The notes beneath the pieces are model-generated. The model was not told the origin of the DNA, made no database searches, and worked only from the letters and a program-made list of their open reading frames with translations. DNA of 41,412 bases, taken from positions 1 to 41,412 of the forward strand of contig JAGGZE010000085.1 in assembly GCA_021162205.1 (NCBI GenBank), in the 5' to 3' direction. Numbering within the stretch: position 1 is the stretch's first letter; each line of letters opens with the position of its first letter. Below, piece after piece: positions 120 to 33,188 of the stretch. Made by a program: the position numbers and the translations under genes. Origin of the DNA: a bacterium. GTDB lineage: Bacteria > UBP14 > UBA6098 > B30-G16.

Positions 120-301
120 GATGTTTTTTTTGTGCAACTTTTCTGTCCCGACAAGTCGTGGTATTTCACAAGAGTGAAATTCATTTTCGCCGAACCCTTC
201 GGTTCTTTTTAATTTTTGAAATATTATTTTGCTCAAGTGGGTGCAACAGGGAATTGAGCGAAGCGAAAGGAAAGTTGCACAAAGAGAACACCCAAAGGGT
301 G
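111..301. repeat. Two head-to-head copies of a nested-hairpin intergenic element (partial + copy about 111-160; full - copy 241-301)
   Basis: CATCTT-T-AAGATG + T8 + GTGCAAC + CTTTTCTGTCCCGACAAGTCG on +. GTGCAAC AGGGAAT ... AGGAAA GTTGCAC AAAGAGAA CACCC-AAA-GGGTG at 241-301. Same linkers as the copies at 17623-18014 and 32654-32720. Confidence 0.7.
192..210 (+). terminator. Rho-independent terminator-like hairpin
   Basis: GAACC-cttc-GGTTC followed by TTTTT. Confidence 0.5.
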
Positions 302-17622: not shown

Positions 17623-18014
17623 ACCTTTAAGGTGTTTTCTTTGCATTGCTTTTCTTCCCGATGGAATCGGGAATTCATTGCAATGCCAACTTAATATAAA
17701 TCATTATTTTCCTCCGAATAACCTTTAAGGTGTTTTCTTTGCATTGCTTTTCTTCCCGATGGAATCGGGAATTCATTGCAATGCCGACTTAATATAAATC
17801 ATTATTTTCCCCCGAATAACCTTTAAGGTGTTTTCTTTGCATTGCTTTTCTTCCCGATGGAATCGGGAATTCATTGCAATGCCAACTTAATATGAATCAT
17901 TATTTTCCCCCGAATAACCTTTAAGGTGTTTTCTTTGCATTGCTTTTCTTCCCGATGGAATCGGGAATTCATTGCAATGCCAACTTAATATAAATCATTA
18001 TTTTCTCCCGAATA
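17623..18014. repeat. Tandem array, 4 x 98 bp, each unit containing a small hairpin plus a nested double hairpin
   Basis: Units begin at 17623, 17721, 17819 and 17917 with ACCTTTAAGGTGTTTTCTTTGCATTGC...; each contains GCATTGC[TTCCCGAT-GGA-ATCGGGAA]GCAATGC; only a few substitutions between copies. Confidence 0.95.
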
Positions 18015-32605: not shown

Positions 32606-32625
32606 AGAGCCGTTCGGCTCTTTTT
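32606..32625 (+). terminator. Rho-independent terminator
   Basis: AGAGCC-gttc-GGCTCT followed by T-run, downstream of the BFD gene. Confidence 0.75.
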
Positions 32626-32653
32626 AATGGGTTTGAAAACTTTGATAACGCAG

Positions 32654-32720
32654 GCGTTGCAGGGAATGTCCCGACTTGTCGGGACAGGAAAGCAACGCAC
32701 AAAAAACACCCGAATGGGTG
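32654..32720. repeat. Single copy of the nested-hairpin element, abutting the stop codon of the next minus-strand gene
   Basis: GCGTTGC AGGGAAT [GTCCCGAC-TT-GTCGGGAC] AGGAAA GCAACGC ACAAAAAA CACCC-gaat-GGGTG, then TTA (minus-strand stop) at 32721. Confidence 0.85.
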
Positions 32721-33188
32721 TTAGTCGCTTATGATGAGGAGTGAATTTTCGATACCATTCTCGAAATCTTTAAGTGGATTATTTGGGTCCTCGACCCAAC
32801 TCGCTCCTTGGTCGATTACAAATTTATACTGGTATCTTCCCGATGGCAGTGGCAGAACGATTTCCCATATTCCGTCTTTATTGTCGTCTCGCATAATACC
32901 GGCAGATGGGTCGAATCGGTCGTATTCTTTGGTCCCGCACCAGCCATTGAAATTACCTGCGAGATTCATATAGTGTGCTGCTTTATTCTCATACTGGAAA
33001 ATTATATAGTGCATATTTTTCCCTGCGGAACTCATTTTGGCGGTATCATCGATAATACCGGAATATTTCGAGACATCGATTTCGTGAGGTGGTCGAAGTC
33101 GATTTTTAATTAAATTCCCGACACATCCAGTAATCGAAAATATCAGTAATACTGTAATAATAATTTTGCCGGTCGATATATACTTCAT
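32721..33188 (-). CDS. Lipoprotein with CBM48/AMPK-type glycogen-binding-like domain
   Basis: 155 aa; lipobox-like FSITGC; HYMNLAGNFNGWCG...DGIWEIVLPLPSGRYQYKFVIDQGASWVEDPNNP. Confidence 0.8.
   Translation of the reverse strand: MKYISTGKIIITVLLIFSITGCVGNLIKNRLRPPHEIDVSKYSGIIDDTAKMSSAGKNMHYIIFQYENKAAHYMNLAGNFNGWCGTKEYDRFDPSAGIMRDDNKDGIWEIVLPLPSGRYQYKFVIDQGASWVEDPNNPLKDFENGIENSLLIISD

Follow-up and report, generated by a model that had tools for sequence, protein, structure and literature searches.

A family of nested palindromic repeats with hairpin layers that change as paired units

Introduction

What kind of element is the nested hairpin ending at position 32,720 of a 41,412 nucleotide contig from a bacterium of the UBP14 lineage? 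The contig (C43), analysed over its full length, is referred to here as the window. It belongs to a 2.57 Mb MAG that is 95% complete and comprises 185 contigs. The original prediction, made from the letters of the window, described three loci with conserved linkers and differing stems that still pair. It proposed a structured RNA or a protein-recognised DNA hairpin, and argued that a plain terminator would not need such covariation. A covariance model and a search for a linked RAYT gene were suggested as checks.

Results

The element is a nested hairpin with a terminator-like tail

We focused on the + strand copy at 32,654–32,720. It reads GCGTTGC-AGGGAAT-GTCCCGACTTGTCGGGAC-AGGAAA-GCAACGC-ACAAAAAA-CACCCGAATGGGTG, and the letters were confirmed at this place. 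The outer stem, of class R, pairs a 5' arm GCGTTGC (32,654–32,660) with a 3' arm GCAACGC (32,692–32,698). Between the arms, linkers L1 (AGGGAAT; 32,661–32,667) and L2 (AGGAAA; 32,686–32,691) form an internal loop. They flank the inner hairpin GTCCCGACTTGTCGGGAC (32,668–32,685), which folds as GTCCCGAC-tt-GTCGGGAC. An A-rich linker, ACAAAAAA (32,699–32,706), leads into the tail hairpin CACCCGAATGGGTG (32,707–32,720), which folds as CACCC-gaat-GGGTG. On the - strand, the A-rich linker is the T-run of a terminator-like site that includes the tail hairpin, and the tail adjoins the stop end of a - strand ORF (32,721–33,188). Upstream of the outer stem is a conserved head flank, TTGATAACGCAG (32,642–32,653), with the family consensus ~TTTGATTnAkCwG. 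Using ssDNA parameters, both strands of the copy form the nested hairpin and the tail hairpin (z = -7.0 and -6.4). The element had been drawn from 32,606. That position instead starts a separate terminator-like hairpin, AGAGCCGTTCGGCTCT (32,606–32,621, + strand), followed by TTTTTAA, at the opposite end of the composite unit.

The other two predicted loci have the same skeleton. At 241–280 (+ strand) is a copy with a class Y outer stem (GTGCAAC/GTTGCAC) and linkers AGGGAAT/AGGAAA, followed by the tail CACCC-aaa-GGGTG. The inner hairpin of this copy is weak (z = -2.5). The array at 17,623–18,014 consists of four 98-bp units on the - strand (17,643–17,686, 17,741–17,784, 17,839–17,882 and 17,937–17,980). 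Unit 1 has the outer stem GCATTGC/GCAATGC, linkers AATGAAT/AGAAAA, inner hairpin TCCCGATTCCATCGGGA and tail ACCTTaAAGGT. We also noted a decayed or hybrid copy at 122–192 (- strand), with a class C head (CGGCGAA AATGAAT TTCACTCTTGTGAA) and a class Y end (AGAAAAGTTGCAC). Its outer arms, with the 5' half of class C and the 3' end of class Y, no longer pair; it is a rare single-arm recombinant.

The source genome contains a large family of copies

The repeat unit of nested hairpins is about 80 bases long. A BLAST search with the 32,654 copy identified 67 places in its own genome. The covariance model, trained on 24 copies that all lie outside the window, recovered the 32,654 copy (E = 2e-12) and gave at least 150 matches in the source genome, all with E ≤ 4e-7. 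A structure-guided scan of sampled genome stretches, in which outer-stem pairing was required, catalogued 199 copies. Genome counts rest on these searches and sampled stretches. By outer stem, 90 copies are GCRTTGC (class R), 84 are GTGCAAC (class Y) and 25 are GGCGAC (class C). Classes R and Y have the head flank in common, as well as the A-run that leads into CACC or CAGG. Hence, they belong to one family and differ in their outer stems.

A count of nested hairpins that disregards sequence gave 202 per Mb in the source genome (G000) and 78 per Mb after shuffling; relatives, for which samples were small, were near background. Beyond the source genome, the covariance model found weaker copies only, 2 and 4, in two genomes of the same family. 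It found no copies in other family members, the remaining class or 23 more distant genomes. Viral contigs searched with two exact element patterns gave 0 matches.

Three loci of same-family relatives (L088, L090 and L087) have element copies or arrays next to the 3' ends of tRNAs; the array of L088, with three units (1501–1679), directly abuts a tRNA-Arg (1680–1755) at its 3' end. At L086 and L091 (G005) the element is enclosed by the two arms of a different palindromic repeat (CTCCTTTCTCCCC...GGGAGAAGG). The embedded element of L086 lies just past the IYDLRGNVV of a sorting domain, and the frame then hits a stop. Separately, a larger composite palindrome (for example GGGGGAACTTCTTTTGGCAAAGAAGTTCCCCC then CTAACGAACAAAGTTCGTTAG) appears to be another repeat family in gene gaps, seen at L042 (10900–11250), L047 (12100–12300) and L049 (3900–4080).

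Tails lie close to gene ends

Nearly all of the 199 copies lie between ORFs, in both orientations. There are often several per gap, with arrays of 4–5. The description of the element as intergenic therefore holds for most copies and fails for some, which form translated, in-frame parts of T9SS sorting domains. Genes were simple longest-ORF calls, so distances are approximate; by this measure, the outermost copies have a shorter tail-to-gene than head-to-gene distance (MWU p = 1e-5). Stop-facing tails are typically 13–40 nt away, with 18 of 30 within 40 nt and 20 of 30 within 61 nt. A further 23 outermost tails face gene starts. The 32,654 unit has a terminator-like hairpin for each strand: the tail with its T-run on the - strand and the upstream hairpin on the + strand. 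Judged by its sequence, the tail hairpin probably terminates transcription of the neighbouring gene.

Hence, the family might consist of bidirectional intrinsic terminators, selected at gene ends, with the nested hairpin as decoration. The two terminator-like hairpins of the unit, and the stop-facing tails no more than 40 nt from a stop codon, are as this would predict. However, 23 outermost tails point the other way, at gene starts. Furthermore, termination needs neither 4–5-copy arrays nor in-frame coding copies, and leaves the linked L1 and L2 types and the paired exchange of stems, described below, unexplained. We consider this explanation improbable. The earlier case against a plain terminator is supported, but the short hairpin is itself terminator-like and faces gene ends.

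Hairpin layers change as paired units

We assessed covariation in an alignment of 24 sequences. Pairing was found in 94.1% of cells, compared with 72.2% after shuffling (0 of 500 shuffles), and 14 of 19 base pairs had changes on both sides. Sliding the partners reduced pairing to 33–40%. The linkers recur across the catalogue as linked L1/L2 types: AATGAAT/AGAA (54 copies), AGGGAAT/AGGA (44) and AAGGAAT/AGGG (31). These are purine-rich and non-complementary. The conserved linkers, and differing stems that still pair, are thus as originally described.

The outer arms, linkers and inner arms are each tightly associated within their layer (z = 25, 36 and 40, respectively), and the excess information within a layer is about half of the smaller entropy. 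Association between layers is weaker but above zero. Hence, subfamily history contributes. Because the catalogue required pairing, we repeated the outer-arm test free of this condition. Exact arms then gave 150 same-class and 2 mixed combinations. We also compared copy pairs with near-identical flanks on both sides (n = 148). In 119 of these pairs at least one layer differs; 54 of the 119 share their outer stem and have wholly different inner hairpins. The outer stem, the purine internal loop and the inner stem each change as paired units. The predicted compensatory changes are therefore real in that stems covary, but most are exchanges of the whole stem; GCGTTGC versus GTGCAAC, for instance, is a stem replacement. 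Only GCGTTGC/GCATTGC looks like point compensation.

Mutation could also generate covariation. Template-switch correction, a known process (PMC7202029, PMC3820800), can perfect quasi-palindromes without selection or mobility. It predicts Watson-Crick compensation with no G.U bias and could cover the GCGTTGC/GCATTGC difference. Conversely, it should render L1 and L2 complementary, yet these remain non-complementary purine loops that change together. Hence, palindrome correction alone is insufficient. Nor does it fit the swapping of whole unrelated stems among copies with near-identical flanks. Template switching is already unlikely as the sole cause, and we regard a purely mutational origin of the covariation as very unlikely.

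A G.T pair on one strand is an A.C pair on the other, and an RNA transcribed from a single strand would be expected to favour G.U. Among outer-stem pairs, 1213 are Watson-Crick, 26 are G.T, 26 are A.C and 19 are other combinations. Since G.T and A.C are equal, there is no sign of selection for strand-specific RNA. Inner hairpins gave 34 G.T and 18 A.C; we set this aside as evidence because misregistered hairpins inflate G.T. Despite its strong paired covariation and conserved unpaired linkers, a cis-regulatory or small RNA kept by base-pair selection is thus highly improbable, given imperfect outer pairs with no strand bias, copies in both orientations beside many different genes and 0 Rfam matches anywhere in the window (Rfam scan, gathering score). 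Of the two possibilities first raised, the counts speak against the RNA, and the recognised DNA hairpin is favoured over a plain terminator. Strong base-pair covariation in repeats need not imply a functional RNA.

Some copies are translated within T9SS sorting domains

Many copies that seemed to be inside ORFs were in spurious ORFs within gene gaps, and only the sorting-domain cases were accepted. One copy is in an intact ORF (L053), near a Y1 transposase gene. The C-terminus of the encoded protein is a T9SS type A sorting domain (PF18962, 29.3 bits, cut-off 27; TIGR04183, 28.2 bits, cut-off 23). The source genome has about 50 matches to the T9SS sorting domain and, in the paralogues examined, two loops hold palindromic DNA in frame.

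Site 1 precedes (I/V)(Y/F)DLRGN and holds the nested element in C129, C149, C26, C121, C31, C55 and C9. Elsewhere, site 1 holds other palindromes, such as GTAGGGGTTTGGCGCGCCAAACCCTTAC and GAACAAGGGGTAACTACCCCTTGTTC. An empty site 1, exactly 42 nt long and free of palindromes, is seen in 12 of 14 domains of relatives and 4 of the 23 source-genome paralogues. Site 1 is longer in the remaining 19 of 23, and 7 of these 19 hold the nested element in frame. The C129 group exceeds the empty length by exactly 51 nt. Gains at filled sites are in whole codons, and no target-site duplication could be defined. Site 2 follows (I/V)(Y/F)DLRGN and holds the element in C29, C9 and C178, in a reading phase different from site 1. 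Every in-gene copy points the same way with respect to its gene. In an AlphaFold model of low confidence (mean pLDDT 61), both sites fall between predicted strands. One insertion, with its flanks, is common to several paralogues. Hence, independent in-gene events number perhaps 4–5.

Across the T9SS loops at L144–L183 (C129, C23, C91, C160, C125, C167, C120, C118 and others), several unrelated palindrome families are in frame. In the source genome, the two sorting-domain loops therefore look like hot spots for coding palindromes generally. The T9SS paralogues provide a natural assay of insertion, in which filled and empty sites can be compared.

A Y1 transposase gene adjacent to one copy

The search for a linked RAYT gene had a mixed outcome. 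The source genome has three Y1_Tnp genes. One of these, a single-copy gene encoding a 136-aa protein with a HIHFL motif, is ~50 bp from a copy. This protein scores 16.2 bits against NCBIfam REP_Tyr_transpos, for which the cut-off is 80. This gene is kept by 7 of the 8 family genomes, with weaker conservation in part of the class. Its orthologues also occur in relatives with no detected copies and, in G001, the gene is not beside a copy. Because the gene is kept vertically and is present in relatives that lack copies, its linkage to the element is not demonstrated. The Y1 (HUH) transposase is thus a candidate mobiliser only, possible but doubtful. MITEs are marked by terminal inverted repeats in common with an autonomous element and by target-site duplication; no autonomous partner element was seen for the repeat family.

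The other two Y1_Tnp genes, at L054 (C114) and L055 (C149), are near distinct palindromes of their own (GGTGGACTGAAGTCCACC and TGTAGGAGAGGTCTCCCGACCTC, respectively). This layout is as expected of a REP transposase with its repeats.

Discussion

The element is REP- or coding-palindrome-like and lies outside the described GTAG/CGTC REP superfamilies. REP and BIME sequences are short, high-copy palindromes of gene gaps that often occur in inverted or clustered arrangements, near ORF 3' ends and sometimes inside ORFs (PMC3733652). Our 199 catalogued copies resemble the RAYT-associated GTAG/CGTC superfamilies in being mainly extragenic, short and abundant. However, GTAG occurs in 1 of 199 upstream flanks and CGTC in 0 of 199 flanks, in line with the early impression that no known REP class applied. 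The present element also differs in its longer nested hairpin, A-run and tail hairpin, in stems that are exchangeable in every layer, and in that a cognate RAYT is not demonstrated.

Rickettsia palindromic elements (RPEs) are found between genes and in frame within protein genes (PMC10969869, PMC2229807, PMC3767692). Likewise, the repeat described here occurs both in gaps and in frame in intact genes, within PF18962/TIGR04183 domains. Compared by description rather than sequence, RPEs are ~100–150 bp and occupy many unrelated genes, whereas genuine in-frame copies of the present element were seen only in loops of T9SS sorting domains, where they use more than one reading phase. The RHE and DHE hairpins of mitochondrial DNA are also repetitive, intergenic and mobile-looking (PMC2800124). 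In the sponge RHE, stems are conserved and loops vary (PMC2800124); here, linkers are conserved and stems vary. Intrinsic-terminator-like repeats, such as the pneumococcal SPRITE named in PMC10969869, would share a terminator-like hairpin with a T-run. In the present repeat, that hairpin forms just one part of a larger nested structure. Searches of open-licence papers for such a combination, including palindromes inserted into T9SS sorting domains, gave no description of it, and on this basis the repeat is previously undescribed.

The family is probably a non-autonomous mobile palindromic repeat, similar to REP/BIME and Rickettsia palindromic elements. The mobile unit would comprise a 6–7 bp outer stem, a purine-rich internal loop and an inner hairpin, then an A-run and the terminator-like tail hairpin. 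Most likely, it spreads as a folded single-stranded DNA hairpin. We infer that a protein reads the conserved unpaired parts (the internal loop, flanking G and A-run) and not the sequence of the stems. Such recognition would leave stems free to change while still pairing. Known REP transposases recognise folded ssDNA via bulge or loop contacts (PMC8266576). Linked, non-complementary linkers are what internal-loop recognition in a folded strand would be expected to give. The layers are probably swapped, as paired units, by recombination between copies. Copies may persist where harm is small, in gene gaps, where the tail can act as a terminator, and in the two T9SS sorting-domain loops. Against mobility, the analysis revealed no target-site duplication, excision or transposition. 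There is also no dedicated linked mobiliser, the candidate Y1 gene being single-copy, vertically kept and below the NCBIfam REP-transposase cut-off.

A bolder proposal is a new composite class of mobile DNA, whose folded modules are swapped intact by dedicated single-strand recombination or transposition and repeatedly diversify the same two T9SS sorting-domain loops. We consider this unlikely. In our preferred reading, that of a mobile palindromic repeat, the family shows that an uncultivated lineage harbours REP- and RPE-like palindromic parasites, whose changes have left an unusually clear record. Replacement of layers as paired units, together with unpaired purine linkers, points to structure-specific recognition that could be tested with synthetic hairpins. 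The T9SS paralogues suggest selfish hairpins as a source of loop sequence in secreted proteins.
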